Positions 9,648 through 64,000 of a DNA stretch of 64,000 nt are shown here, one piece after another. Position 1 is the stretch's first letter. The number at the start of each line of letters is the position of its first letter. Origin of the DNA: Ectothiorhodospira haloalkaliphila ATCC 51935 (GTDB lineage Bacteria > Pseudomonadota > Gammaproteobacteria > Ectothiorhodospirales > Ectothiorhodospiraceae); assembly GCF_000633935.1 (NCBI RefSeq), contig NZ_KK214996.1:494928-558927 (forward strand). The letters are read 5' to 3'. Below the pieces are notes generated by a model that was not told where the DNA came from, made no database searches, and saw nothing but the letters and a program-made list of their open reading frames with translations. Both the position numbers and the translations under genes were made by a program.

Positions 9648-10784
9648 TCAGGAGGCGCGGGCTCGCATCATGTCAATGAACCGGTCGAAACCCGGGGCCA
9701 CGTCGGCAGGACCGGGGGAGGCCTCCGGGTGACCCTGAAACGTCTGTACCGGGCGGTCGGTGAGCTCGACGCCCTGCAGGGTACCGTCAAACAGGGAGCG
9801 GTGAGTGGGCCGTACGTTGTCCGGCAGTTGGGCATCATCCAGGGCAAAGCCATGGTTCTGACTGGAGATCATCACCCGCCCGGTGGCCAGATCCTGCACC
9901 GGATGGTTGGCACCGTGGTGGCCGAACTTCATCTTCATGGACTGCGCCCCGACAGCGAGGCCCAGCAACTGATGCCCCAGGCAGATACCGAGAATGGGCA
10001 GGTTCTTCTGCTCCAGCAGCTCGCGGATGGCGGTGATGGCGTAGTCGCAGGGCTCCGGGTCGCCGGGCCCATTGGAGAGCAGCACGCCGTCGGGTTTCAG
10101 GGCCAGCACGTCGGCCGCCGGAGTCCGGGCCGGCACCACCGTCACGCGGCAACCCCTGTCCACCAGCATGCGCAGGATATTGCGCTTGGTGCCGAAGTCG
10201 TAAGCCACCACGTGATGGGGCTGTGCTTGCGGTGCCTTGCGGTAGCCCTCGCCCAGCACCCAGGTACCTTCATTCCAGGTGTAGGTCTCCGGGGTGGTGA
10301 CCTCGCTGGCCAGATCCAGGCCCTTGAGGCCCTGGAAGCCCCGGGCGGCTTCCAGGGCCTTTCGTTCATCCACCTCGCCGGCCATGATGCAGCCGTTCTG
10401 GGCGCCCTTCTCGCGCAACAGACGGGTGAGGCGGCGGGTATCCACACCGCCGATGGCCACCACGCCGTGGCGTACCAGATAATCGGGCAACGTCTCGGTG
10501 GCGCGCCAGTTGGACATGCGCGAGGGCACATGACGCACAATCAGGCCGGCCGCATGGGCGCGGTCGGATTCCTCGTCCTCGGGGTTGACCCCGGTGTTGC
10601 CGATATGGGGGTAGGTCAGCGTGACCAGCTGACGGGAGTAGGAGGGATCCGTGAGGATTTCCTGGTATCCGGTCATGGCGGTATTGAACACCACCTCACC
10701 CACGGTGAGACCTTCGGCGCCCACGGCATGACCGTGAAAGAGGCTGCCATCTTCCAATGCCAACAAGGCGGGTGTGGTTTTCAA
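9648..10784 (-). CDS. carA: Carbamoyl-phosphate synthase, small (glutamine amidotransferase) subunit
   Basis: CarA hydrolyses glutamine and passes ammonia to CarB. The class I amidotransferase domain carries the nucleophile in [13 protein letters not shown], the HGANHPV segment and the catalytic His-Glu in [11 protein letters not shown]. The start is uncertain: a GTG at 10799 lacks a good ribosome-binding site, while a TTG at 10784 follows GGAGGT closely and gives an N-terminus ([14 protein letters not shown]) that aligns with E. coli CarA. I chose the TTG, giving 378 residues. dapB is upstream at about 150 bp on the same strand. Confidence 0.95.
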
Positions 10785-10932: not shown

Positions 10933-12890
<1,958 letters not shown>

Positions 12891-51218: not shown

Positions 51219-51610
51219 CCGCCTGCGGGTCCACCAGGGTTTGTCGCTGGGCCCGGCTCAACGACCGAGCCTGCGCGATAAAAAATCCCGTTCCACCGTC
51301 AGCTTGCCGATCTCACGGTACAGGGTGTCGATCTCCTCCTGGGTCTTCTGGGCCGCCTTGCCCCCGCCCTTGCCCTCGAAGATCCCCGTCGCCTTGTCCA
51401 GCAACTCACGCCGCCACTGACTCACCATGGTCGGATGGATCTCGAAGCGGGCTGCCAGCTCCGAGGTGGTCTGCTCCCCTTTGAGGGCCTCAAGGGCCAC
51501 CTTGGCCTTGAAGTCAGCGCTGTATTGCTTGCGTTTCCTGCTCATGATCAGATTCTCCTGTCGGAATGATCAGAGCTTAACCCCTGGTCCGAATTTTGGG
51601 GTCCACCTCA
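51219..51610 (-). mobile_element. IS3-family insertion sequence remnant
   Basis: An intact orfA and one terminal sequence remain. The outer end near 51610 reads TGAGGTGGACCCCAAAATTC on the minus strand, a typical IS3-group terminus beginning TG. After orfA, another frame encodes LSRAQRQTLVDPQAVDA, matching the start of orfB, but breaks into ychJ at about 51219. The rest of orfB and the other end are missing, so the element cannot move by itself. Confidence 0.85.
51258..51545 (-). CDS. IS3-family transposase OrfA
   Basis: The 95-residue product starts MSRKRKQYSADFKAKVALEA after AGGAG. It has a helix-turn-helix (TTSELAARFEIHPTMVSQWR) and a leucine-zipper-like C-terminal region ending LTVERDFLSRRLGR, the classic OrfA layout. 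In intact IS3 elements, programmed frameshifting fuses OrfA to OrfB; OrfB is truncated here, so the protein is probably non-functional for transposition. Confidence 0.93.
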   Translation of the reverse strand: MSRKRKQYSADFKAKVALEALKGEQTTSELAARFEIHPTMVSQWRRELLDKATGIFEGKGGGKAAQKTQEEIDTLYREIGKLTVERDFLSRRLGR

Positions 51611-52098: not shown

Positions 52099-53058
52099 TC
52101 ATCGTCGAGGCAGCTCTCTGCCCTTCACGAGAACCTCCTGACCTGTTTCAAGCCGGTAGGAGTCTGGAAAGAAATGCACAAGCCAGAGTTTGACCACGCG
52201 CCAGACCTGCGCGTACTCTTCTTCCGATCCCGTGCCGCCAAGGCTGGCAGCCAGAAACTCGTGAGCTTTCGTGTCCGTCAAACCGGCCGCCGCCAGCTTG
52301 TCTACCTCTGCAAGCAGCGGCATCTGTTTCAAGATGCCCGCCACATAGGCTGTGAAGAGATCCTGCGTCAGCCCCTGAGGCGGTGACAGCGCCGCCAGAT
52401 CCGCCTGAGCCGCCTCGAACGCGCTGGTCACCATCGTATCGGCGCCGCGCCCGCGATAGACCTGCCAGAGGCGGTCCGGTGTCGGGCATCGCGGTACCCA
52501 CAAGGTCTGCTCAACCTCCGTCGCAACATCGTCTTCAACCTCCGGAAGCCGACGCGGGGTTTTGTCTTTTTTCAGGTCATCGGCCTGCCGGCGAATGCGG
52601 TCGCGCAACTCTTCAGTGGCTTGCACGGCGGAGCCCAGCAGCGCGTGTTCCCATTCGGCCAGCCCTTCGAGCTCGGCCGGAAGGGCGACAAGCAACTCGA
52701 CATTGGACGGTGTGTGCCAGCCGAGGCCTCGCGCTGTAAGGTTGGCAGAACCGACGAGACAGTCCCTGCCGTTCGAATAGTATTTCGCATGCAGGTGCGG
52801 ATGGACCAGAAGGCGTCCGCCGCGCGCGCCGGCGATGTCCTCGAGGATTTCGAGATCACAGACGCCGGAGGCGATGTCCTCGGGAAGCCAGCGCGTGACA
52901 CAGATGCATTCCGACACCGTCTCGGGGACGGCATGGAGCAACCGGCGCAAGGTCGGGGATTTGATGTACGGCGCTGCTATGACCACCCGGTCGTTAGCGG
53001 CCCTGACAAGTTCGAGAATACCGTCGCCGGGAAGGACAACCGCCATGTCATTCGTCAT
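52099..53058 (-). CDS. Phospholipase D-family nuclease-like protein (putative SspH/effector)
   Basis: The 319-residue protein has one HKD-type motif: H90-A-K92 in HLHAKYY, followed by LVGSANLTARGL (Gly-Ser-x-Asn). The spacing to the acidic residue is not canonical, as in other defence-linked PLD proteins. A single motif implies a dimer if catalytic. The N-terminal half is the PLD fold; the C-terminal half (about 160-319) is unassigned, with an acidic, charged stretch near 150-170. It overlaps the GHKL ATPase gene by 11 bases; an alternative ATG at 53046 exists. PLD proteins act as nucleases in other systems (for example DISARM DrmC is PLD-like). Here it is the last gene of the island and probably cuts DNA, but this is inference. 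Confidence 0.83.
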   Translation of the reverse strand: MTNDMAVVLPGDGILELVRAANDRVVIAAPYIKSPTLRRLLHAVPETVSECICVTRWLPEDIASGVCDLEILEDIAGARGGRLLVHPHLHAKYYSNGRDCLVGSANLTARGLGWHTPSNVELLVALPAELEGLAEWEHALLGSAVQATEELRDRIRRQADDLKKDKTPRRLPEVEDDVATEVEQTLWVPRCPTPDRLWQVYRGRGADTMVTSAFEAAQADLAALSPPQGLTQDLFTAYVAGILKQMPLLAEVDKLAAAGLTDTKAHEFLAASLGGTGSEEEYAQVWRVVKLWLVHFFPDSYRLETGQEVLVKGRELPRR

Positions 53059-54883
53059 CCTCTTCGGTGAGGAAGAAGCGCGCCATCTTTCCCCATTCCT
53101 GCCGCATCTCGAACAGCCGGTTCTTCTGCCGAACTTCCTCCATCTCGTAGCGCGCCCAAGCGGCGAACAGCAGCTCCAGCGTGTCGGCAGCCGTGTGAAT
53201 CCGCTCCATCAACTCGGCATCGGTCTCGTCGCCGATCTGGGGTCGCAGCGATTCAATCAGTTGGTCGTAAAAGGGATGGTTGCTATTGAAGACGACTTCA
53301 GTCAGCCCGCCTTGTTTGTGTTCGACATTGAAGAACGCATAACCTTCCATCGACTTTTCAAGGAACAGGACCTTCCGCTTGCGCGTGAAAGTCGCTTCGG
53401 CGATTTCCCGGGCAACGTCCTGACGGTAGTGTTTGTCCTCCATCAGGTCTTTCTCGAGATCGTCGCGATCCTTCTCCGTGAACTCTTCGCGGTCAGACTC
53501 CGTCTCGTGTCCCTGTTCAGCGCGCTCGCGGAATTTTGTCGTGGCTAGGTCGGAAACGTCAGGCTCGTCATGCCTGTCTTCTTTCGTCCGACGTCCGACA
53601 TTCTGTTTCTTGAGGCGTTTGCGCACCTCCTGAATCTGGTCGCGTATGTGATCGACGATGGGCAGCAGAATCGCGCGCGGATCGCCTTCGCCCTGTATGC
53701 GTTCCTGAAACTCCGACCGCGATTCGCCGGGATTGGCTTCGGCCTTCCAGTCGAACTGGGCCATATGCGAGAAGATCGTCGCGCTTTGCTTGGTGTTGGT
53801 AACGCCGAACACCTCGTCGAGCGTCGAGGGAAACTCGACCTCGACGCCCCACCAGCGTTCGGTCGGGTCGTAGCTATTGGTCCATGCGGGATCAAGGTCC
53901 AGTTCGCGGCCCTCGCGGACGATTGACAGGCCGATGTTCTTAGCGGCGTGTTTGCCGTAGGGCTTCGAGCCGCGGTCGCTCCTGTCTTCCGGCACGGTTT
54001 CTTCCCGCGCCCAGCTCATGCGGACCACGACATCGTGCTTTGCGCCGTCATAGTCGATGGAGAATACCTCGTCCGCGCCACCCCAGGGCTGAAACATCGG
54101 CTCCGTGTTGAACGGGGCGGGGGTCGATGAATCGCGCATCAGGTAGAGCGGGTCGTTGACGCGCACCGGTTCGTCGAAGGTAGGTTCACCCTCGTCTTCG
54201 GGCAATGCCAGGAGCCGGATCGAAAGGCGTCCGTCGTCGATGAATTTCCGGTACATACGCCCGACAAGTGATTCTGTGTGGCGCAGCGTCGCCTGCGCGC
54301 CGCGCCAGCTCAGGCGATGATCGTCGAAATTCGTCCAGAGCACGAGCGTGCCGGTCGTCTCGACGTCGTCGGAACGGGCGCGCCATTCATCGGGAAGCGG
54401 TTTGTGCGCAGGGGCCGGAACCGCATACAGCCGCCGCCCTTCGATTTCATCGACATCGAGATAGGAATACATGGCATTGTCCGGACCGTTCTGCCATGTC
54501 CAGACTTCCACCCGGCGACACTGCGAAATCGACGAGTTCGGCAGGCCCATACCGAAACGGCCGATACCCTTCCGGTCCGTCAGATGCGTGCCGTTTCCGA
54601 ACTGAAGGGCGAGACGCAGCGTCTCGGGGGTCATGCCGTCGCCGTTGTCCAGGATGCCGATTGCCTGAATCCTCCGGCTGGCGCGTTCGTTGACCTGCCG
54701 ATACCCTTCAAGGCAGATCACCTCGACATTGCCGGCGTTCGCCTGAACGGAATTGTCGATCAACTCCGCAAGCGCGTACGCGGTGTTCTTGTAGCCGCTG
54801 TCGCGCATGGCCTTCACGGCCAGTTCAGGCGGAATGATTTCTCCATCGAGCCTTTGCGACTCAGCAGCTTCTGTCAGGCTCAT
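53048..54883 (-). CDS. GHKL (Hsp90/MutL-type) ATPase of defence module
   Basis: The start at ATG 54883 is chosen because GGGAGG lies about 10 bases upstream; it gives 611 residues. The Bergerat-fold motifs are clear: N-box AELIDNSVQ (Glu40, Asn44), G1 box DNGDGM (79-84) and G2 box GIGRFGMG (106-113). The C-terminal half is highly charged with a probable coiled coil (about 430-520) and an acidic end (TEEDDE). I cannot match the C-terminal region to a named domain. It overlaps the helicase gene by 23 bases and the PLD gene by 11 bases. GHKL ATPases are recurrent in defence islands, probably as ATP-driven sensors or clamps. Confidence 0.9.
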   Translation of the reverse strand: MSLTEAAESQRLDGEIIPPELAVKAMRDSGYKNTAYALAELIDNSVQANAGNVEVICLEGYRQVNERASRRIQAIGILDNGDGMTPETLRLALQFGNGTHLTDRKGIGRFGMGLPNSSISQCRRVEVWTWQNGPDNAMYSYLDVDEIEGRRLYAVPAPAHKPLPDEWRARSDDVETTGTLVLWTNFDDHRLSWRGAQATLRHTESLVGRMYRKFIDDGRLSIRLLALPEDEGEPTFDEPVRVNDPLYLMRDSSTPAPFNTEPMFQPWGGADEVFSIDYDGAKHDVVVRMSWAREETVPEDRSDRGSKPYGKHAAKNIGLSIVREGRELDLDPAWTNSYDPTERWWGVEVEFPSTLDEVFGVTNTKQSATIFSHMAQFDWKAEANPGESRSEFQERIQGEGDPRAILLPIVDHIRDQIQEVRKRLKKQNVGRRTKEDRHDEPDVSDLATTKFRERAEQGHETESDREEFTEKDRDDLEKDLMEDKHYRQDVAREIAEATFTRKRKVLFLEKSMEGYAFFNVEHKQGGLTEVVFNSNHPFYDQLIESLRPQIGDETDAELMERIHTAADTLELLFAAWARYEMEEVRQKNRLFEMRQEWGKMARFFLTEEDDE

Positions 54884-56519
54884 CCCAAACGTCCTCCCAG
54901 TTCTTGAATGCGTCGGCCACGCTGCCAAAGCCAGGCAAGTGCGGATCGACAACCGTTACAATCTCGGCCTCGTCATTTCCACCGGCCCGCGTGCCGCGCG
55001 TCGCCCTGCCGACCATCTGGCTGTAAAGCACAAGCGACCGTGTCGGGCGCGCGATGACGGCTGCACTCGTCGCGGGCGCGTCGAATCCGGTGGTCAACAC
55101 ACCGTAGTTTACAACCACCATAGCGCGATTATCTTTACTTTTGAAACGCCTGATTACTCTTTCGCGTTCCGCTGTATTGCTTTGACCGGTTACAACAAAT
55201 GCTTCATGTCCGCGTATGGACAAGATCGCCGTAAGCACGCGCGCGTTCTCCACCGATGGCGCGAATACGATGACGCGGCGATGCCGCGTCATCAGGTCTT
55301 CGACTGCGGACAGGATTTTCAGGTTGCGCTGCGTGTCCGTACCCAGACGCTCCAGAATCTGTTCCGGCACGTCGATCGCGGATGAGAGCGCATTGACATC
55401 GTTCTCGCTCAGCGTGAGCCCCGCATCGGAATTTAGTGTGCGGAAGGTTGGGCGCGCAAGATATTTCTGGTCGATCAGGAAAGTGACGGGGTCGTCGTAA
55501 CCTTCGACTTCGAGCGTGACCTTACGGCCGTCGAAATAATCCGAAAGCTTGCGGTCCTCGCCGATATCCGACCAGCTTCGTCCGGGCGTCGCCGTGAGGC
55601 CCAGCAAGGCGTTGTGCGGCCGCTTGCTGTAGAGGGCCGTAAGGATCGCCGCGTATGTCGGCGCAATCGCCTGGTGAGCCTCGTCGATAATCGTCAACGA
55701 GACGCGGTCGGCCAGACGCAACAGGGTTGCGGCATCGCGGTTGTCGAGCGCCGACATCTTGGCGAGGCCGGAAACGATCACACCGTCCTGTATGTCGAGA
55801 ACATCCGGTCTCCTGTGTCCCCAGAAGCGGACGAGTGCGGTTTCCCGATTACCGAGAAACTTCCATGCATTCTCGAACTCGCCCGCGGCTTGGTCCAGAA
55901 GTTCGGCATTCTGGGCGAGCCAGCAGACGACGGTCGGCTCGCTCCGGCGCAGATGTTCCGCCACGATGTGCATGGCCGTGCGGGTCTTGCCCGCGCCTGT
56001 CGGCATATGAAGAATGACCTTGCGCGGCGCGTCGCCAAGCGCATGCACCACACGCTCGGCAGCGGCACGCTGGTGATCGAACAGCGCGTATCCGGCGGAT
56101 GCCTTCGTGGCGTCCGGCGCCGAGTCTGCCGGCGCGCGAACGTCCCGGACCACGCCGAAGAACGAGTACAACACAGCCAGCGCCGCAGAATCGGCGGCGG
56201 CGACGCAGAGATCGTCGTATAGCGTGCGGCCGTCTTTCGCGCCGAGATGCCCGCCCAGCTCGCGCGCCTTGGATAAGGGCAGCATGCGGATGATGCGGCT
56301 GCGCATTTCCGGGTCGCGCAACGCTTCGGAGGGTTCGACAAGGTTGACGGCAAGCTCCCCGAGCCGGGTGCCGGAGTCCAGTTCGGGGTCGAGCCCCCGA
56401 AGCGTATCCACGATCGACGGACCGATCACCTCGCGCAACGCAGATGCCTTGGCGTTGCGCAACAGGGTTTGAAGGGCCATGCCCGGTACGGTGTCAGGCG
56501 TGTGGGTCGATCTGGTCAT
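54861..56519 (-). CDS. SF2 DEAH-box helicase of defence module
   Basis: The 552-residue protein contains a complete superfamily 2 core: Q-like ALFDHQ (about 145-150), Walker A HMPTGAGKTRT (171-181), DEAH box IIDEAHQ (277-283), motif III GLTATPGR, then motifs V and VI with GVLTTGFDAP and QMVGRATRG near residue 500. An N-terminal region of about 140 residues is not recognisable. The start is uncertain between ATG 56519 and ATG 56480, neither with a strong ribosome-binding site. It begins 90-129 bp after the DGQHR gene, the widest gap in the island, and is coupled to the GHKL gene downstream. The likely role is DNA translocation or unwinding for the effector module. Confidence 0.92.
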   Translation of the reverse strand: MTRSTHTPDTVPGMALQTLLRNAKASALREVIGPSIVDTLRGLDPELDSGTRLGELAVNLVEPSEALRDPEMRSRIIRMLPLSKARELGGHLGAKDGRTLYDDLCVAAADSAALAVLYSFFGVVRDVRAPADSAPDATKASAGYALFDHQRAAAERVVHALGDAPRKVILHMPTGAGKTRTAMHIVAEHLRRSEPTVVCWLAQNAELLDQAAGEFENAWKFLGNRETALVRFWGHRRPDVLDIQDGVIVSGLAKMSALDNRDAATLLRLADRVSLTIIDEAHQAIAPTYAAILTALYSKRPHNALLGLTATPGRSWSDIGEDRKLSDYFDGRKVTLEVEGYDDPVTFLIDQKYLARPTFRTLNSDAGLTLSENDVNALSSAIDVPEQILERLGTDTQRNLKILSAVEDLMTRHRRVIVFAPSVENARVLTAILSIRGHEAFVVTGQSNTAERERVIRRFKSKDNRAMVVVNYGVLTTGFDAPATSAAVIARPTRSLVLYSQMVGRATRGTRAGGNDEAEIVTVVDPHLPGFGSVADAFKNWEDVWDEPDRSC

Positions 56520-56609: not shown

Positions 56610-57872
56610 TCACCTGATCTTTTCCGGCAATTCAGCCGCATCATCGCCGGTTTCTCTTTGATACCTCTCAAGCAATGTCGCTTCAGTGTAGTTCTTTGCG
56701 TTCTTCCCGACCATGTACAAAAGAACTTCACGAATAGTCACCTTGTGGCCGTTGAGCATGATCTTTTTATTCGGCTCCCACATGAGCCACCGAAACGGTT
56801 CTTCATCGAGGCTATCGGGCAACTCGGCTGCCAGCTTGGCGGCCCGCGCCAGGCTCATATCCTTCGTGAAGCGGGCGATCACACGAGTCATGATTTCCAG
56901 TCCGATCGGCCGAAACAGGACATGCCCGCCATGATTCCCACGATACTTCTTGACCACCGGTTCGGTGTTCTTCGCGCTGAAAAATTCGTCCAGCGCTTTG
57001 AAATTCTTTCTGAGCTGAAGGAAATAGCTTTCCGCGAACCTCAAATATTTATCCAGCGTCTGGTCGTCGGCACGGACCCTCTGCAAATCCGCCTTCTGCT
57101 CTCTCAAATCCGAATACGCGTTGGTAAACAGGATCGTCAGCACGTCGTAGAGGTTGGCGATTGTCGTTAAGCTCGTCGTGTTGGCGGTCGGCATGTTGTT
57201 GCTGGCGACAAAAGCGAGCCTGTTGTCTGCGAAAAGCTTCGTTTCTTCAATGAGTCGCCTTACGCAAATGGCCATGACATCGTCTTCATCGAGGGCGATG
57301 ATTTCCCCCTTGGAAACGGGTCGTGCCGTCTTGTTCAAGGTCGTGAACAACCGGCGTGTGCGCTCCAATCCTTTTTTGGTGTCCTTGTGTCCGACGAATA
57401 TGACGGAGAGTTCATCATAGGGGTCGTTGTCCAGACCGTCTTTCACAGCCTTCTTGATGCCCGCCAGACGATGCTGACCGTCAAGCGCAAAAAGCTTCTC
57501 CTGTCCCGTCAGCGTCAGGAAGCCGACAGAGGAAACCGTATCCTCGGTCAGGTTCTTCAACTCATCCGGGGCGGTCTTGCTCCGAACATCCGAAAGGGCG
57601 TGCCAGTTCGGCTGGCCGCCGTATGTAGCAATGACAAGGGAATTGAAGAAGCGCTCGGGCTGCCTCTTGAGATAATCCGCTATCTGTGCGGCACGGCCTC
57701 TCTTGAGGTGTCTTTGGATCATGTCCGAAAGCTCTTCGTTCTCGTGGATTTCCTCCGCGAAGTTGACGCGGGAACTCAATTCCCCCACGTCCATAAGGCA
57801 TGAATAGAAAACCCAGTCGCCCATGACGCCACGGAGGGCCGGCAGTACGATTTTCTTGTGCTTTTTCGCCAT
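56610..57872 (-). CDS. DGQHR domain protein (DndB-like)
   Basis: The 420-residue protein carries the diagnostic FALDGQHRLAGI (DGQHR at residues 131-135). LSVIFVGHKD and FTTLNKTARPVSKGEIIALDEDD follow, typical of the DndB/DGQHR family. DndB is a transcriptional repressor of dnd genes in some double-strand phosphorothioation systems. A DGQHR gene is not part of the core SspABCD set, so its presence here is notable. Its ATG overlaps the GIY-YIG stop by one base (TAATG) and GGAGGG lies 10 bases upstream, so the two are coupled. A regulatory role or a DNA-contact role are both possible. Confidence 0.9.
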   Translation of the reverse strand: MAKKHKKIVLPALRGVMGDWVFYSCLMDVGELSSRVNFAEEIHENEELSDMIQRHLKRGRAAQIADYLKRQPERFFNSLVIATYGGQPNWHALSDVRSKTAPDELKNLTEDTVSSVGFLTLTGQEKLFALDGQHRLAGIKKAVKDGLDNDPYDELSVIFVGHKDTKKGLERTRRLFTTLNKTARPVSKGEIIALDEDDVMAICVRRLIEETKLFADNRLAFVASNNMPTANTTSLTTIANLYDVLTILFTNAYSDLREQKADLQRVRADDQTLDKYLRFAESYFLQLRKNFKALDEFFSAKNTEPVVKKYRGNHGGHVLFRPIGLEIMTRVIARFTKDMSLARAAKLAAELPDSLDEEPFRWLMWEPNKKIMLNGHKVTIREVLLYMVGKNAKNYTEATLLERYQRETGDDAAELPEKIR

Positions 57873-58393
57873 TACCGGAACGCCCTCCGTTTTTGCTTTG
57901 TATCGGCTTCAAGGTCTCCCTCGGAGAACGGCGGCATCAGCGCCGTGTTGAGCTGTTTTTCGAGCGCCTGCAAATCATTTGAGGAAATATCATCGTCGAT
58001 GGGAGCGAAATAGAACCGCAGCACCTGATGCCAGGTTCCGATCATCCGTGCTATGCGTGCGCGTTTCTTGACCTTTCTGGCATTGAGATACTCCTTATAC
58101 CGGTCCCTCAGCGAGCGTTCGGAATCGCGTCCTGCGATTCCAATGTAGAGAACGTACCCGTGGGGCGGTAGAACAGCATTATTCCTGCAAATCGCGAAAG
58201 CGTAGATACCTCGCTTGTCAGCAGGAACCTTTTCCAGCTCTTCGTCACCGTAGCTGATGGAGTCCCACGCAAGGGCCTCGATTGCGTGCTCATTCGCCAT
58301 CATCTTGTCTGGCGACAAAGTGACGGGCACCGTGTACTTGGCGATTTCCTCGGTTGCCTCGTTTGCAAAATCTATCAAGGAGTCCAGGTCCAA
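57872..58393 (-). CDS. GIY-YIG domain protein, putative nuclease
   Basis: The 173-residue product has the two hallmark strands RGIYAFAI (residues 61-68) and YVLYIGIAGRD (80-90), then a helix with RSLRDRYKEYL supplying the conserved Arg, and E145 in LQALEKQLN in the metal-binding position. The catalytic set (two Tyr, Arg, Glu) thus looks complete, suggesting a single-strand-cutting endonuclease domain. The first about 55 residues are unassigned. The start is TTG at 58393, 21 bases after the sspD stop; an internal ATG at 58303 is an alternative but lacks a ribosome-binding site. It lies inside the ssp operon and is coupled to the DGQHR gene. Confidence 0.85.
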   Translation of the reverse strand: MDLDSLIDFANEATEEIAKYTVPVTLSPDKMMANEHAIEALAWDSISYGDEELEKVPADKRGIYAFAICRNNAVLPPHGYVLYIGIAGRDSERSLRDRYKEYLNARKVKKRARIARMIGTWHQVLRFYFAPIDDDISSNDLQALEKQLNTALMPPFSEGDLEADTKQKRRAFR

Positions 58394-58414: not shown

Positions 58415-59251
58415 TTATTTGTGACACGCCAGACAGACTTTGGCCTTGCCGTACAGGTCGTCGATATCCAGCGGCTCGCTGTCCGGCCGGAGCGGGTTCG
58501 GCTGAACCTTCGACTTCATGCGGGCAAGCCGTTGTTCGTGCTCTTCCCTGATCTGCGCGACGCGCTCCGGCTGCTGCAGCTCTTCGAGAGATTCGCCCTG
58601 GCTCCAGGTGAACGGGGAACCGTGTTCGACAGCGTCCTTCTCATACGCTTTAGCCTCTTCGAATGCGTCCGGGTGTTGCTCCTTAAGCCGCACCCATTCA
58701 ATTTTCTGCTGGAAGAAGCAGAAGGTGCAGCCGCTGCGGGTCCGCCACTCGTAATATTTCGGCAAGCCGAGCCCGGCCCCTTCCAGGACATCGAGGACGC
58801 CGGCCTTGTCGATTCCGGCTTCCTTGAACGGCAGCTTCACGATCAGCTTGTCATGCTTCGAGGAATACCCGTCACGGTATTCCTCGTCACTGCGGATGGC
58901 GACGTAGCTGTACACCGTAATGCCGTCGTCGAGCATTGGGCGTAGCCAGCGCTCGAACGGGCGAAGCTTGAGCTGCCGCGTGCACCAGCGCGTCTGGGGC
59001 GACGGCAGGAAATCATTGTACTGCTTGAGCCAGAAATCGAAGTCGCGGTCGGGATTCAGTCGCAATATCGGTTGCCCGAGAAAGCCCTCCAGCCGCCCGA
59101 GATATTCGTAGACTTCGGGCAGCTCTTTGCCGGTGTCCGTGAAGAAATATTCGATTTTCAGCTCAGGAAGATGCTGACGCATGTAGACGGCAAGAGCCGC
59201 GCTGTCGCGGCCCCCGGAAAGACCAAGGACGTGTCTCACAGGACCGTTCAT
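58415..59251 (-). CDS. sspD: Phosphorothioation sulfurtransferase SspD (PP-loop, DndC-like)
   Basis: The 278-residue product belongs to the PAPS-reductase/ATP-pyrophosphatase family with the PP-loop LSGGRDSAAL (SGGRDS at 12-17) and FTDTGKELPE. Cysteines C90 (RWCTRQLK), C175/C178 (SGCTFCFF) and C273/C276 (KVCLACHK) could hold an Fe-S cluster, as in DndC/SspD. It would activate the DNA phosphate and insert sulfur. The ATG at 59251 overlaps the sspC stop by one base (TGATG); the TTG three bases earlier is a less likely start. The sspB-sspC-sspD order is that of the single-strand phosphorothioation system. Confidence 0.92.
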   Translation of the reverse strand: MNGPVRHVLGLSGGRDSAALAVYMRQHLPELKIEYFFTDTGKELPEVYEYLGRLEGFLGQPILRLNPDRDFDFWLKQYNDFLPSPQTRWCTRQLKLRPFERWLRPMLDDGITVYSYVAIRSDEEYRDGYSSKHDKLIVKLPFKEAGIDKAGVLDVLEGAGLGLPKYYEWRTRSGCTFCFFQQKIEWVRLKEQHPDAFEEAKAYEKDAVEHGSPFTWSQGESLEELQQPERVAQIREEHEQRLARMKSKVQPNPLRPDSEPLDIDDLYGKAKVCLACHK

Positions 59252-62200
59252 CAAGACGCAGCTCTTCCTTTCCCGTTCTTCTTGGGCAGTGCAGGCTTTT
59301 GCATGTAGCGCGTGCTCAGTTCCGCCAGCGCAGCGAGAATGATGCTGCGCCTGGTTGTGTCGGATTCGTCGAGCGCCGCTTCGACACGGTCTATGAGCGC
59401 GTTTACGGCTGCGCGGTCCGAGTCCGCAAGATAGAATTCTTCAAGAATCGGCGCGGGCCGTCCGTTCGTGCCGATAACGACGGCCATCGCATGACGCTTG
59501 TCGGGACGGCCCTTGACGCGTGCGTAGGTTTCCGCGCGAAGGAATTTCTGCGCCATATCGGCGACCTCGATCGCTGCCTGGTCAAGGTCGGGATCGACCC
59601 AGTCGCGCGGCGGCTTGTTCGCGGCCAGACTGGCAATCCCCTCGAAACTCTCGTCCGAACCGTCGAAGCGGGCCAGCCGACCGACGAAGGCGTCGAGCCG
59701 GAAGTCGCCGGCGAGCTGTCTGATATTCTCGGCGCGCTCACGCAGCTCCGCGAGAGACTGCGACGAAATGTTCGGCACCTGCAATTCGGCGAGCATCAGG
59801 TCGCGCATGCGATGCAGCATGGACGGATAAGCCTGCACCAGCTCTTCGAGCCCGTCGCGGACACTCTCTATCACCCGGCGCAGATCGGCATCCGTGTCTA
59901 GCGCCACGTCCTCTCCGAGGGTTCCCGGAATATCATCGAACAGGAATCGGTTCGGATCGTGCGCGCGTTTGAACAGGTCGCGAATGCGCGCCGCGTTGGC
60001 GGACAGGCGCATTGTCCGTGTCGTCCAGTTCGGCAACTGCTCGAATATGGACATCAACCCGCGACCAACGTCGATGGGTTCAAGATGCACAAGCTCGTTG
60101 GTCTGATCGAGATCGCGAACGACTTCCGCCATATCCGACAAAAGACGCCGCGCGATATCCGTCAGGTCCATCCAGCGCAACTGGATGACGGTCGCGTCCT
60201 TGGCGAGATAATCGGCATCTACATCGTCGAACCGGACCCTGAAAATTCCCTCGCGGTAAACCGCAAGCTTGTCACGCTGGGACTGGATGAACGCGACGGC
60301 GAGAAGCGGCATCAGGCCGTCTTTGACGCCGAACGGCGGATCGCGCCACAGCTCGAAAATCTCCGAAACGGTCACCGTCCGTTCGGCATTCTTTTTTACG
60401 TATTCGAAGGCGGCCTGCCACATCGGCGCGAGACCGCACGGATCGTCACCGTCCGTGGGCGCAACGAACCGGAACGTCTTGCCCTGCCGGACGTACAGGC
60501 GGGTTTTTTCCAGGATGGAAGCAAACAGCCCGCCTTCGGCCGGGTAGCCATCGATACCGAGCCGCGCGTCGCCTTCATTGACGACCATGCGGTGCAGCAA
60601 CTTGTTCTGCGCCATTACGGCGCTGCCGGACGGCTGTTGCCGGTTGAGCAATTCGTTATGAAGACGCGGGCTCTCGGGGAAGCGGCGGTCCGCCAGTTCC
60701 GAGGCGATGCTGTTCAGATCGGCCTGTTGCAGCCGCTTTTTGTGATGTTTTTTGCGGAACCACAGCGCATTGTCGAAGGCTTTGTGCAGTTCGGTTTCCA
60801 AAAGCGCCTGCAACGCAGCAAGCCGGGCCGAAACCTCCCGTCGGGCAACCTGGTCTCCGGCCAGTTCGGGGTGACTGTTGCTGACGTTTTCCAGCGCGAT
60901 CAGTTCCCGGGCCAGCGGCACGACGGCCCATGACTGTTTGGAAATGCCGACGACGATATCGCCCTTGCCCTTCCCGCTGTGGGAGGCCGCTTCCCGGCAA
61001 AGCTTTTCAGCCCGTCCCTCTTTTTCTCCCTCAATCGGGATCGCCAGCAGAAACTGTCCGATCGAGCCATTTTCCGGCTCAAATCCGGCGGCGAACTCGA
61101 CGATGTCGCTGACCGGCACGATGTTCACATCGAACCACCGCATGGCGCCGGTTTCGTGGTAGTGGCGCTTGGCGAGGATCGGCTGAAGACCGGCAAGCGA
61201 CTTCAGGTGCCCGAAGTCGATCTCGTCGATTTCATCGAGCGCCGTCCGGACGGCCCGTTCGATATCGAAGTCGCTGCCGGCGAAAATGGCGCGGGCGTCG
61301 AGAAACTTTTTGAAGATCGTGAGCGACCAGCCGTCGAGGTCGGAAAGCGCCTTCTCAATTGCCTTTTGCGGCGTGTCGGGAAAGCAGGATTGCAGCAATT
61401 CGGAATTCGGAAGTAGGCCCGAGCGTTCCTTGAACAGGTCGATCACGGCAATGGTCTTGAGCAACCTGACATGCAGCGCATCGCCGCCAAGGGACTCGCA
61501 GCGTTCCAGCACTTCGGCCGCCAGCGCCCACCGGTGTCCGTCAGGCGAAGCCAGTATGGACGGCTCGAGGTTGGCGCGCAGATAGTCCCACAGCCGGTCG
61601 GGGCCGTAGAGTTCGCCGTCCTTCGCATGGTTCAGGAAGTTCTGAAATCCGTGCAGTTCGGATGAATTGAGGAATCCGAAAATACTGCGCTGGTTCTGGC
61701 CGAAACGCCGCCGCGAAATCGGGCCAAGTAGCGCGGCGACGACCGGGTGCAGCGGCCAGCAGTCCTCAAGCATCGAAGCCAGCCGCGAAGCGTCCTCTCG
61801 AGGCCGATCGCGCCGCGCGAATGCGGCGACCGAAGACGCAAGAGCGCCCGGCTTCTTCGCGACATGATCGCTCTCTATCGCACGGGAGATGAGGTCGATT
61901 TGTTCTTCACCCGCCGTATCGACGACAAGGTCGATGAACCGGCCCTGTATCTTCGCCCATTCGTCCCGCATGTCATGCGAGAGCCGGTGCGCGTATTCCT
62001 CAAATGCCTGGTGCAGCACGCCGACGATCAGGAGACGCCCGTTGCTGCGTGAAGCCGCTTCGGCGAGCTGCTGAAGGATGTAGATATCCGAGCCGTCCTG
62101 CGCGGCGGCTTCGAGAAACTTACCCATTTCGTCGATGAAGAGGACAAGCCCGCCATGGGTCTTCGGCTTACATGCGGCCGCGTCGGTAAGCGTCTCTATC

Positions 62201-62649
62201 AGGTTGGTCTCGGTCCATCCGCCGCGCGGTACGCGCGGCACAAGCCCGGCTCTTTTGGCGGCTTCACCTATGACTGTAACGGGATCTGCGCGTGTACCGA
62301 CGACGGGAAGGATGCGCCATCCCTTCGTGCCTGTCGGCAAGGCTTTCCGGATCGTATTCGTCAGGCTCTGCCCGAAAACCTTCGCCGCCTGTTTTTGCAA
62401 TCCGACATCGCCGTTCAACAGCGCGGCCAGCGCAACGGCAAGGCTGGATTTGCCGCTGCCGTAGGGGCCGGTCCAGGTGAATGCGCCCTGTCCGGTCTCG
62501 GACACGTGCCGCGCCATCGTGGCGAGAACTTCCGCTGAGGATTGCGGGCAGGCAAAGCCGTCGAGGGCAGCGGCGTCCCCGAGGTCGGTGTCGATGCGGA
62601 CCGATCTCAGGAAACGGCGGGCGATGCGGACGCGCTCCTTTAGTAGCAT
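59251..62649 (-). CDS. sspC: Large P-loop ATPase SspC
   Basis: The start at ATG 62649 (MLLKERVRIARRFLRSVRID), preceded by AAAGAGG, gives 1132 residues. Walker A is WTGPYGSGKSSLA (GPYGSGKS at 61-68) and Walker B LVLFIDEMGKFLE (Asp173, Glu174). The remaining about 900 residues are largely helical, with no domain I can name. The size and position between a DUF4007 gene and a PP-loop gene identify it as SspC, the ATPase of the SspABCD phosphorothioation complex. It overlaps sspB (TAATG) and sspD (TGATG) by one base each, implying fixed translational stoichiometry. A longer frame upstream to 62766 overlaps sspB and is not used. Confidence 0.9.
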   Translation of the reverse strand: MLLKERVRIARRFLRSVRIDTDLGDAAALDGFACPQSSAEVLATMARHVSETGQGAFTWTGPYGSGKSSLAVALAALLNGDVGLQKQAAKVFGQSLTNTIRKALPTGTKGWRILPVVGTRADPVTVIGEAAKRAGLVPRVPRGGWTETNLIETLTDAAACKPKTHGGLVLFIDEMGKFLEAAAQDGSDIYILQQLAEAASRSNGRLLIVGVLHQAFEEYAHRLSHDMRDEWAKIQGRFIDLVVDTAGEEQIDLISRAIESDHVAKKPGALASSVAAFARRDRPREDASRLASMLEDCWPLHPVVAALLGPISRRRFGQNQRSIFGFLNSSELHGFQNFLNHAKDGELYGPDRLWDYLRANLEPSILASPDGHRWALAAEVLERCESLGGDALHVRLLKTIAVIDLFKERSGLLPNSELLQSCFPDTPQKAIEKALSDLDGWSLTIFKKFLDARAIFAGSDFDIERAVRTALDEIDEIDFGHLKSLAGLQPILAKRHYHETGAMRWFDVNIVPVSDIVEFAAGFEPENGSIGQFLLAIPIEGEKEGRAEKLCREAASHSGKGKGDIVVGISKQSWAVVPLARELIALENVSNSHPELAGDQVARREVSARLAALQALLETELHKAFDNALWFRKKHHKKRLQQADLNSIASELADRRFPESPRLHNELLNRQQPSGSAVMAQNKLLHRMVVNEGDARLGIDGYPAEGGLFASILEKTRLYVRQGKTFRFVAPTDGDDPCGLAPMWQAAFEYVKKNAERTVTVSEIFELWRDPPFGVKDGLMPLLAVAFIQSQRDKLAVYREGIFRVRFDDVDADYLAKDATVIQLRWMDLTDIARRLLSDMAEVVRDLDQTNELVHLEPIDVGRGLMSIFEQLPNWTTRTMRLSANAARIRDLFKRAHDPNRFLFDDIPGTLGEDVALDTDADLRRVIESVRDGLEELVQAYPSMLHRMRDLMLAELQVPNISSQSLAELRERAENIRQLAGDFRLDAFVGRLARFDGSDESFEGIASLAANKPPRDWVDPDLDQAAIEVADMAQKFLRAETYARVKGRPDKRHAMAVVIGTNGRPAPILEEFYLADSDRAAVNALIDRVEAALDESDTTRRSIILAALAELSTRYMQKPALPKKNGKGRAAS

Positions 62650-63608
62650 TAGGCGGCCTCTTTCCCGGGGCGCGAAGCGTAGTCGCCGGGCAGCCTGGAA
62701 AGCGCCGTCTCTTCGCCGATCTCGATGTTGCGGACAACCTGCTTGAGTCCGGCGGTTTCCGACCACCGGAGTGCGCCGTCCGTAGCATCGTCGAGCACAG
62801 CGAGGCGGTCGGCCACGTCGTTCTCGTCGAATTGGAACACGCGCCCCGGACTGCCCGGCGCGTGGGCAATGGCCTCGAAGGACAGCGTGGCGGCGTTGGG
62901 ATAGAAGCGAGACCAGAAATCAACGAGGGCGTAAGCGAATACGCCGTCGCCCAAGGTCGATTTCGGACCGCGCACGAAGCGAAATCCGTCGTTCTTGCCT
63001 ATGGCTTTGATGAGCCCCAACTCCGTCAGCGGTGACTCAAGGGCATCGTCATGCCCGGACTTCCCGGACGGCTGCCGCGCGACGTAGGTGCGAATGAAAC
63101 AGGCCACGTCGTTCTTGAGCGTGGTTTGCGCAACGCGCGACCATCCGCGATCGCTCGCAAGGCGGTCCAGTTTCCGGATCAAGCCGTCTCGCTCAAACGT
63201 AATGGCGGGGTAATGGCTGAACGCCCAGAACCAAGTGGTTCGTTCAGGGTGTGCCGCGAACTGCCAGTGAAGAAGCCAAAGAGTTGCGGGATATTCCATC
63301 CACGGATCGAGTCCACCGGGACCGAACAGCAACCGGCCGAGTTCGGTGGTTTCAACCGTGTTGGTGGCAGGCTCCCGGATAATTCGCGCCGCTTTCGCCC
63401 AATAGCGGATGGAGCCGACCATGTTCTTGCCGACACCGAAACGCGCTATGGCCTCGTCGTCCCAACACGCAGCGCGGTTGTCGGTTTCGGACTCTGTCTC
63501 GGCGACGCGGTCGAACGCCTTTTTCAGCCACCCGTAGCGCAACGGGAAGGTTTCGTGCCCCGAAAACTGCGGGCTGTAGTCATTCTGAAAAAGCGGTCCG
63601 CGCGCCAT
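62649..63608 (-). CDS. sspB: DUF4007 nickase SspB of DNA phosphorothioation system
   Basis: The start at ATG 63608, with GAGGGAG upstream, gives 319 residues. The DUF4007 hallmark FSGHETFPLRYGWLKKAF is at residues 15-32, followed by GVGKNMVGSIRYW and a C-terminal FDENDVADRL. SspB in the described SspABCD system is a DUF4007 protein with nicking activity that opens one DNA strand for sulfur insertion. The upstream in-frame extension to 63674 lacks similarity. It is first in a tightly coupled operon and is divergent from sspA with a 153-bp gap. Confidence 0.93.
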   Translation of the reverse strand: MARGPLFQNDYSPQFSGHETFPLRYGWLKKAFDRVAETESETDNRAACWDDEAIARFGVGKNMVGSIRYWAKAARIIREPATNTVETTELGRLLFGPGGLDPWMEYPATLWLLHWQFAAHPERTTWFWAFSHYPAITFERDGLIRKLDRLASDRGWSRVAQTTLKNDVACFIRTYVARQPSGKSGHDDALESPLTELGLIKAIGKNDGFRFVRGPKSTLGDGVFAYALVDFWSRFYPNAATLSFEAIAHAPGSPGRVFQFDENDVADRLAVLDDATDGALRWSETAGLKQVVRNIEIGEETALSRLPGDYASRPGKEAA

Positions 63609-63644
63609 GTCTCCCTCGGGCTGCTGGATGATGCGTCCAGCTCG

Positions 63645-63674
63645 ACTGTACCCCGAATGGCGTGCTACGGTCAA
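63645..63674 (-). promoter_or_regulatory. Possible promoter for the sspBCD operon
   Basis: On the minus strand TTGACC (63674-63669), an 18-base spacer and TACAGT (63650-63645) loosely fit a sigma-70 promoter. The leader to the sspB start would be about 30 bases. The match at -10 is only partial. Confidence 0.4.
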
Positions 63675-63761: not shown

Positions 63762-64000
63762 ATGAAAATCGGAAAAACGATATATCTCGACCATCAGGCG
63801 ACGACTCCGGTCGATGCACGTGTTTTAGCCGAAATGACGCCGTATTTCAGCGAATCTTTCGGCAATCCGCATTCATCGGATCACATCCTCGGGTGGGACA
63901 CATCGCGTGTCGTGGACAATGCAGCCGCGCGAGTCGCGCGGCTGATCGGCGCGGACCCCGATGAGATCATCTTCACCTCTGGGGCGACCGAAGCGAACAA
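63762..64000 (+). CDS. sspA: Cysteine desulfurase of phosphorothioation system, N-terminal part (runs off window)
   Basis: From ATG 63762, after TTGAGGAAAC, the frame encodes [20 protein letters not shown], then [13 protein letters not shown] and [11 protein letters not shown]. This is the N-terminus of a PLP-dependent NifS/IscS-type cysteine desulfurase of the DndA/SspA kind, and the frame stays open to the window end (about 79 codons). It would mobilise sulfur from cysteine as a persulfide for SspD. The PLP Lys and the active Cys are beyond 64000. It is divergent from sspB and completes the SspABCD set. Confidence 0.93.

Follow-up and report, generated by a model that had tools for sequence, protein, structure and literature searches.

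A gene for a predicted GIY-YIG endonuclease next to sspD and the gene of a DGQHR-domain protein that follows it form an obligate two-gene unit, probably a compact module against invaders that has not been named so far. In the window, i.e., the whole stretch of 64,000 nucleotides that was analysed, the GIY-YIG gene starts with a TTG at 58393, a site used by several relatives too, and its stop ends at 57872 (Table 1). The distance of 21 nt to the sspD stop (58415) given in an earlier reading of the sequence alone has been confirmed, with the gene on the minus strand, and the coupling to the DGQHR gene that this reading claimed takes the form of one nucleotide shared by the GIY-YIG stop and the DGQHR start (TAATG). 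Homologs of SspB, SspC and SspD are present in order beside the gene (PADLOC 357, 1350, and 458 bits); the listed ORF of sspC extends to 62766, and the start at 62649 is our own reading.

Table 1. Coordinates of the two-gene unit and of its neighbours in the window.
Feature	Position	Strand	Evidence or motifs
Phospholipase-D-like nuclease, helicase-GHKL-PLD module	52099..53058	-	Pfam/PADLOC and locus comparison
GHKL ATPase, MzaB-like N-terminal domain, helicase-GHKL-PLD module	53048..54952	-	Pfam/PADLOC and locus comparison
SF2 helicase, first gene of separate PT-associated three-gene module	54861..56519	-	Pfam/PADLOC and locus comparison
DGQHR/DndB-superfamily partner, 420 aa	56610..57872	-	Invariant QR, DGQHR, FxxxN motifs; TAATG overlap with GIY-YIG gene
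GIY-YIG endonuclease subunit (predicted), 173 aa	57872..58393	-	G62-x-Y64, Y83-x-G85, R98, Y102, E145
sspD, PAPS-reductase-like	58415..59254	-	PADLOC SspD 457.7 bits
sspC, AAA ATPase	59251..62649	-	PADLOC SspC 1349.6 bits, match begins at residue 42
sspB, DUF4007 nickase	62649..63674	-	PADLOC SspB 356.7 bits
Divergent cysteine desulfurase, SspA-like, 5' part (window end cuts gene)	63762..63998	+	ORF listing and locus comparison

Regarding the 173-aa protein, scans of Pfam, PADLOC, NCBIfam and PDB sequences with the single sequence gave no match, so that the GIY-YIG motif claim needed testing. The family profile did not match any PDB sequence either, and the support for the fold comes from profile-profile and fold comparison. 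In an alignment of 29 rows (the window and 28 relatives), W43, P57, G62, Y64, P76, Y83, G85, G88, R98, Y102, R111, E145, and P154 are invariant, which bears out the GIY and YIG strands, the Arg and the Glu noticed earlier in the ORF. The set covers the Tyr of GIY, the Tyr of YIG, the Arg, the residue four positions after it and the metal-binding Glu, an active-site pattern known from Eco29kI, I-TevI, and UvrC (PMC1952068, PMC2630997). The residue at Arg+4 is Tyr in the window family and in the compared UvrC domains, while it is His in Eco29kI and Tyr in R.Hpy188I (PMC1952068, PMC2630997). The classical sixth residue, a C-terminal Asn (N90 in I-TevI, N154 in Eco29kI; PMC1952068, PMC2630997), is not kept, as position 157 is Ser in the window and Asn or Cys in its relatives. 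Since Eco29kI N154L retains ∼10% activity and R.Hpy188I has Gln at this place (PMC1952068, PMC2630997), the Asn is not strictly defining for GIY-YIG proteins. Compared with the UvrC N-terminal domain, Eco29kI and I-TevI, the family thus shares the Tyr, Tyr, Arg, Tyr/His (R+4), and Glu pattern and differs in the replaced Asn, in a family-specific N-terminal cap and in its DGQHR partner gene. This cap, with the invariant W43 and P57, now accounts for the ∼55 N-terminal residues that the sequence-only reading had left unassigned.

In HHalign, the family was compared with UvrC, YhbQ-type, and other GIY-YIG domains of related genomes (22 in all); the alignment reached a probability of 94.9, a pairwise E of 4.5e-8 and a score of 47.3, against a maximum score of 18.2 in 100 column-shuffled control runs. 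The AlphaFold2 model (pLDDT 84.6, pTM 0.77) follows the order beta-beta-alpha-beta-alpha, and its two best PDB matches in Foldseek, 2lwf and T4 EndoII (2wsh), are weak (E of 0.2–0.36); in 2lwf, the GIY-YIG fold is that of the N-terminal domain in a plant glutaredoxin. A comparison of the model with viral models gave a match to a GIY-YIG protein with a probability of 1.00 and a TM of 0.59. The assignment to the GIY-YIG superfamily is established, and catalysis by the protein is likely judging from its conserved residues.

The partner protein scores above the cut-offs of TIGR03187 (119 bits, cut-off 58.85), which places it among DGQHR-domain proteins, and of PF14072 (98.2 bits, cut-off 29.1). 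Throughout 28 aligned sequences QR (Q53-R54), DGQHR (131–135), and FxxxN (F176, N180) are invariant, as is an Ile (I52) directly before Q53-R54. The best PDB matches of its model have been ParB-N domains, at weak scores (Foldseek), and HHalign gave no match to GmrS/DndI with a shallow template profile of two sequences. Matches of the partner profile to VPS28 in the PDB have been set aside, as a helical stretch had matched by chance. An HNH (DUF1524) nickase domain was found neither in the GIY-YIG nor in the partner protein (Pfam, NCBIfam). The partner has the DGQHR domain in common with DndB but has been ruled out as its ortholog, as it lies far under the cut-off of the TIGR03233 equivalog (56 vs 328 bits) and branches in a clade of its own, separate from canonical DndB (SH-aLRT 100); both proteins coexist in Dnd loci L003, L005, L020, L023, and L025, where a separate canonical dndB is found in addition to the pair. 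In one of these, from Salmonella SARB27 (L005:12507-13698), the partner is frameshifted near its start and the annotated CDS begins after the break.

Thirty loci with the GIY-YIG gene have been compared, namely the window, 4 annotated plasmid or phage records, 23 genome contigs and 2 viral contigs; in the viral contigs a single-sequence scan returned no relative, whereas an alignment-based scan did. The DGQHR family follows directly in 30/30 loci, so that co-occurrence of the two genes across genomes was found without exception, and stop and start overlap in 28 (22 loci share 4 nt and 6 share 1 nt), the exceptions being a 2-nt gap in L014 and the frameshifted partner of L005. Searching the other way round, we found full-length members of the DGQHR family (identity of 37% or more) in exactly 5 of 72,556 plasmid records, the same 5 that hold the GIY-YIG gene, and the remaining plasmid matches were DndB-type with <30% identity. 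Likewise, the only two strong DGQHR matches in 398 genomes of the phylum occur in the two genomes with strong GIY-YIG matches. A mirror-tree comparison over 27 loci gave r = 0.95 for the pairwise identities of the GIY-YIG and DGQHR proteins (maximum of 2000 permutations 0.46). For 11 Ssp loci, the correlations of r = 0.97 between GIY-YIG and DGQHR and of r = 0.97 between SspB and SspC, vs r = 0.62 between GIY-YIG and SspB, reveal two co-evolving blocks. No fusion of the two genes occurs among the collected loci.

The pair is found next to PT (phosphorothioate) modification genes in 24/30 loci. Fifteen of these are SspBCD loci (the window, L002, L004 as seen in L032, L006–L016, and L028; in L007, a short contig, SspBCD is only partly visible) and nine are Dnd loci (L003, L005, L018, L020, and L022–L026), while three more have PT genes elsewhere in the genome (L019, ∼26 kb off on the same contig, L017, and L027). 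In total, 27 of the 28 testable carrier loci have PT genes of their own. As a baseline, DUF4007 occurs in 2.8% of the phylum sample, dndC in 3.8% of E. coli genomes (204/5426) and dndBCD in 1.8% of the genomes of a published survey (568/31,478; PMC11662687). Co-occurrence with sspBCD thus extends to 14 further loci. With the GIY-YIG fold supported as well, neither of the two outcomes that the sequence-only reading had named as speaking against it, a predicted structure lacking this fold and an absence of co-occurrence with sspBCD, has been observed. Its description of the gene as embedded in the sspBCD operon holds for the position only: in 11 Ssp loci the pair follows sspD directly and shares its strand, yet membership of SspBCD has been rejected, because merely 4/69 sspD-bearing plasmids carry the gene and 65/69 do not, the pair also stands beside Dnd genes, in P2-like prophages and in an integron, and its evolution is coupled to DGQHR and not to SspB. 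On the tree, at least 3–4 changes are needed for the Ssp label. In a Tenderia plasmid (L034:10876-11964), the slot directly after sspD, taken by the pair elsewhere, is filled by a nucleoside 2-deoxyribosyltransferase-like gene, and genes related to sspH, sspG, and sspF come next on the opposite strand.

Most PT loci with enough flank hold another restriction-type module, and the pair is therefore rarely the sole candidate effector. This third module differs among loci, and at least three kinds accompany the pair: SspFGH in L004 and L009–L011, a PbeA/PbeC or CxC type in L003, L008, L012 and, by homology, L013, helicase-GHKL-PLD in the window, L002, L006, L016 and partly L015, and a GmrSD-like protein with an SNF2 helicase in L018. 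In the latter Dnd-type locus (L018:12180-18701), an 855-aa GmrSD/SspE-like protein, the SNF2 helicase and a ParB_N protein adjoin the pair. In the window, the helicase, the GHKL (MzaB-like) ATPase and the PLD-like nuclease form a separate three-gene module (52099-56519), which is a candidate for a further restriction module of SspBCD; its gene order is kept in L006 and L016 and inverted in L002, and in L015 the PLD and GHKL genes are on the opposite strand. Further out, where the PT island ends, an ORF at 51258-51545 resembles by eye an OrfA of IS3-family transposases. The operon of L006 has a methyltransferase-like gene (L006:6183-7128) inserted between sspC and sspD, related to a gene that adjoins the pair in L003 and L026, and otherwise resembles the operon of the window (86–96% identity).

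Some copies of the pair stand alone. In Vibrio sinaloensis (L021), the two genes and nothing else lie between attC-like repeats (9780-9903 and 11585-11724), and the pair is, as read from these repeats, a single cassette of the Vibrio chromosomal integron. Neither dndC nor DUF4007 has been detected in this genome, so PT is not always available in the same cell. A further copy (L030) is carried by a P2-like prophage, where it is flanked by gpQ (portal) and gpA (replication), and pairs of 100% nucleotide identity occupy the same slot in E. coli PEC209 (L092:10001-11682) and JNEC-KY180 (L093:10001-11682). In all three the pair is the only intact cargo of this slot, with an IS21 element besides in PEC209, and gpQ-gpA of P2 has been described as a defence hotspot by Rousset et al. 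(PMC9122126). Neither PEC209 nor JNEC-KY180 is among the 60 dndC-bearing E. coli genomes listed (204 in total). These stand-alone copies argue for a self-sufficient, defence-type cargo and against a subunit of the modification machinery. Next to gpA of pair-carrying P2-like phages, a PAPS-reductase-like gene (phrog_424) that is not DndC has been observed (L027:14715-16034, L030:14203-15210), and a gene of the same kind adjoins the pair at a contig end in L029 (L029:11785-12657).

How such a pair may work is suggested by known PT-linked effectors. In SspE and DndI, an NTPase of the ParB superfamily that is stimulated by PT is joined to an HNH nickase (PMC13251355, PMC11662687), and GmrS/GmrD combine a ParB/Srx-fold NTPase with a nuclease, encoded by two genes or fused into one (PMC4619093). 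Taking these fused and separate arrangements together with the invariant motifs of the partner, a split NTPase-gated nickase is the simplest model, and we give an even chance to the pair being a two-subunit, PT-responsive and NTPase-gated DNA nickase with a separate GIY-YIG subunit. The DGQHR subunit would bind DNA and NTP (binding of ATP and GTP is known from a DndB-like protein of a bacterium; PMC12704722) and would switch its state depending on whether host PT marks are present or absent on the DNA. In the permissive state it would license the GIY-YIG subunit to nick unmarked DNA by means of one metal held by E145. The logic of SspE/DndI, an NTPase sensor plus a nickase, would thereby be split over two proteins with GIY-YIG in place of HNH, and the pair could plug into Ssp- or Dnd-type PT systems and also move alone. 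Complex formation, NTPase activity, nicking, sulfur sensing, and an anti-phage effect are all inferred here. The second nickase and the sulfur-sensing restriction enzyme brought up by the sequence-only reading are both possible roles.

The likeness to SspE/DndI comprises a ParB-superfamily NTPase-like module, a DGQ(Q/H)R motif, a linked nickase or nuclease and PT genes alongside. SspE/DndI, however, are one protein with HNH (DUF1524) and DUF262, while the pair consists of two proteins of the GIY-YIG and DGQHR/DndB type; unlike SspE (SspABCD-SspE) and DndI (IscS-DndBCDE-DndI), it is common to Ssp and Dnd loci. A PT-sensing Tyr has been identified in SspE (Y30/Y63) and in DndI (Y25; PMC13251355, PMC11662687). 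If the QR motifs are assumed to correspond as in PMC4619093, Y25-Q26-R27 of DndI faces I52-Q53-R54 in the partner, and the pair has not been filed as SspE because the sulfur-sensing Tyr is replaced by Ile. As this Ile is invariant, the pair is unlikely to sense sulfur through the corresponding residue, and PT, if read at all, is presumably read differently than by SspE/DndI. GmrS/GmrD, a type IV restriction system, set the precedent for an NTPase and a nuclease in two genes but differ in their HNH nuclease, their glucosylated hmC DNA target and the lack of a PT association. GIY-YIG genes near PT modification genes are known from Iyer et al. 2024 (PMC10853773), where the passages considered here describe URI/GIY-YIG nucleases at the boundaries of Dnd loci, stand-alone and as backup effectors, with no mention in these passages of an obligate DGQHR partner, an Ssp association or a stand-alone two-gene cassette.

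A backup role of this kind has to be weighed for the pair itself. The DGQHR protein would then hold the GIY-YIG nuclease inactive and, with no reading of PT, release it as a backup or suicide effector when the main PT restriction system fails or NTP pools shift in infection, an idea put forward in general form in the same passages, both for DndB and for URI (GIY-YIG) nucleases that stand alone where Dnd loci end (PMC10853773), and which suits both the complete restriction module usually found beside the pair and the copies without local PT genes. We nevertheless consider it unlikely, given that 11 Ssp loci place the pair right after sspD on the same strand instead of at a boundary, and that a PT-independent suicide device would not need so strong a PT association. 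More improbable is a regulator, in which the DndB-like DGQHR protein represses the PT operon and GIY-YIG serves as a DNA-binding cofactor that sets the modification frequency. Canonical DndB does bind palindromes in its own promoter and limits PT frequency (PMC4507180), and the partner belongs to the DndB superfamily; yet five Dnd loci have their separate dndB, and the pure regulator that the sequence-only reading had also considered is disfavoured by the invariance of the active site and by stand-alone copies with no adjacent PT operon to control.

The match to UvrC, a repair incision nuclease and the best one by profile, and the position mostly right after sspD in Ssp loci would suit a nuclease that serves the modification pathway in processing or repair and nicks or trims DNA at PT sites or intermediates of the SspB nickase. 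Such a role is hardly probable, as the gene is dispensable for most sspD plasmids, evolves with DGQHR instead of SspB and is found in prophages and an integron with no PT genes alongside. These latter copies would be explained by a PT-dependent, type IV-like restriction of incoming PT-modified DNA, but nearly all testable carrier loci have PT genes of their own and would cut themselves, which makes this reading very improbable.

Our literature search for GIY-YIG with PT, DndB, or DGQHR, which covered few subscription papers and preprints so that a prior description is possible, returned neither the obligate pair nor its use with SspBCD nor the stand-alone copies. The obligate DGQHR pairing, the SspBCD association and the stand-alone copies appear to be new, while PT-linked effectors made of an NTPase and a nuclease are of a known kind. 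It may tentatively be considered, with less than even confidence, that the pair is an independent mobile anti-phage system in its own right, for which PT marks would be one of several self-signals, and an undescribed effector class for a part of the sspBCD loci without SspE and SspFGH. In a survey of 2021, ∼84% of sspBCD loci had no known restriction partner (PMC8092258), and a compact pair that combines an obvious nuclease with a putative nucleotide switch and has natural stand-alone copies in E. coli prophages makes a part of this question directly testable. If the preferred split nickase is indeed gated by PT, the SspE/DndI logic of an NTPase sensor plus a nickase would have evolved with a nuclease whose fold is unrelated, and with a sensing pocket of another kind.
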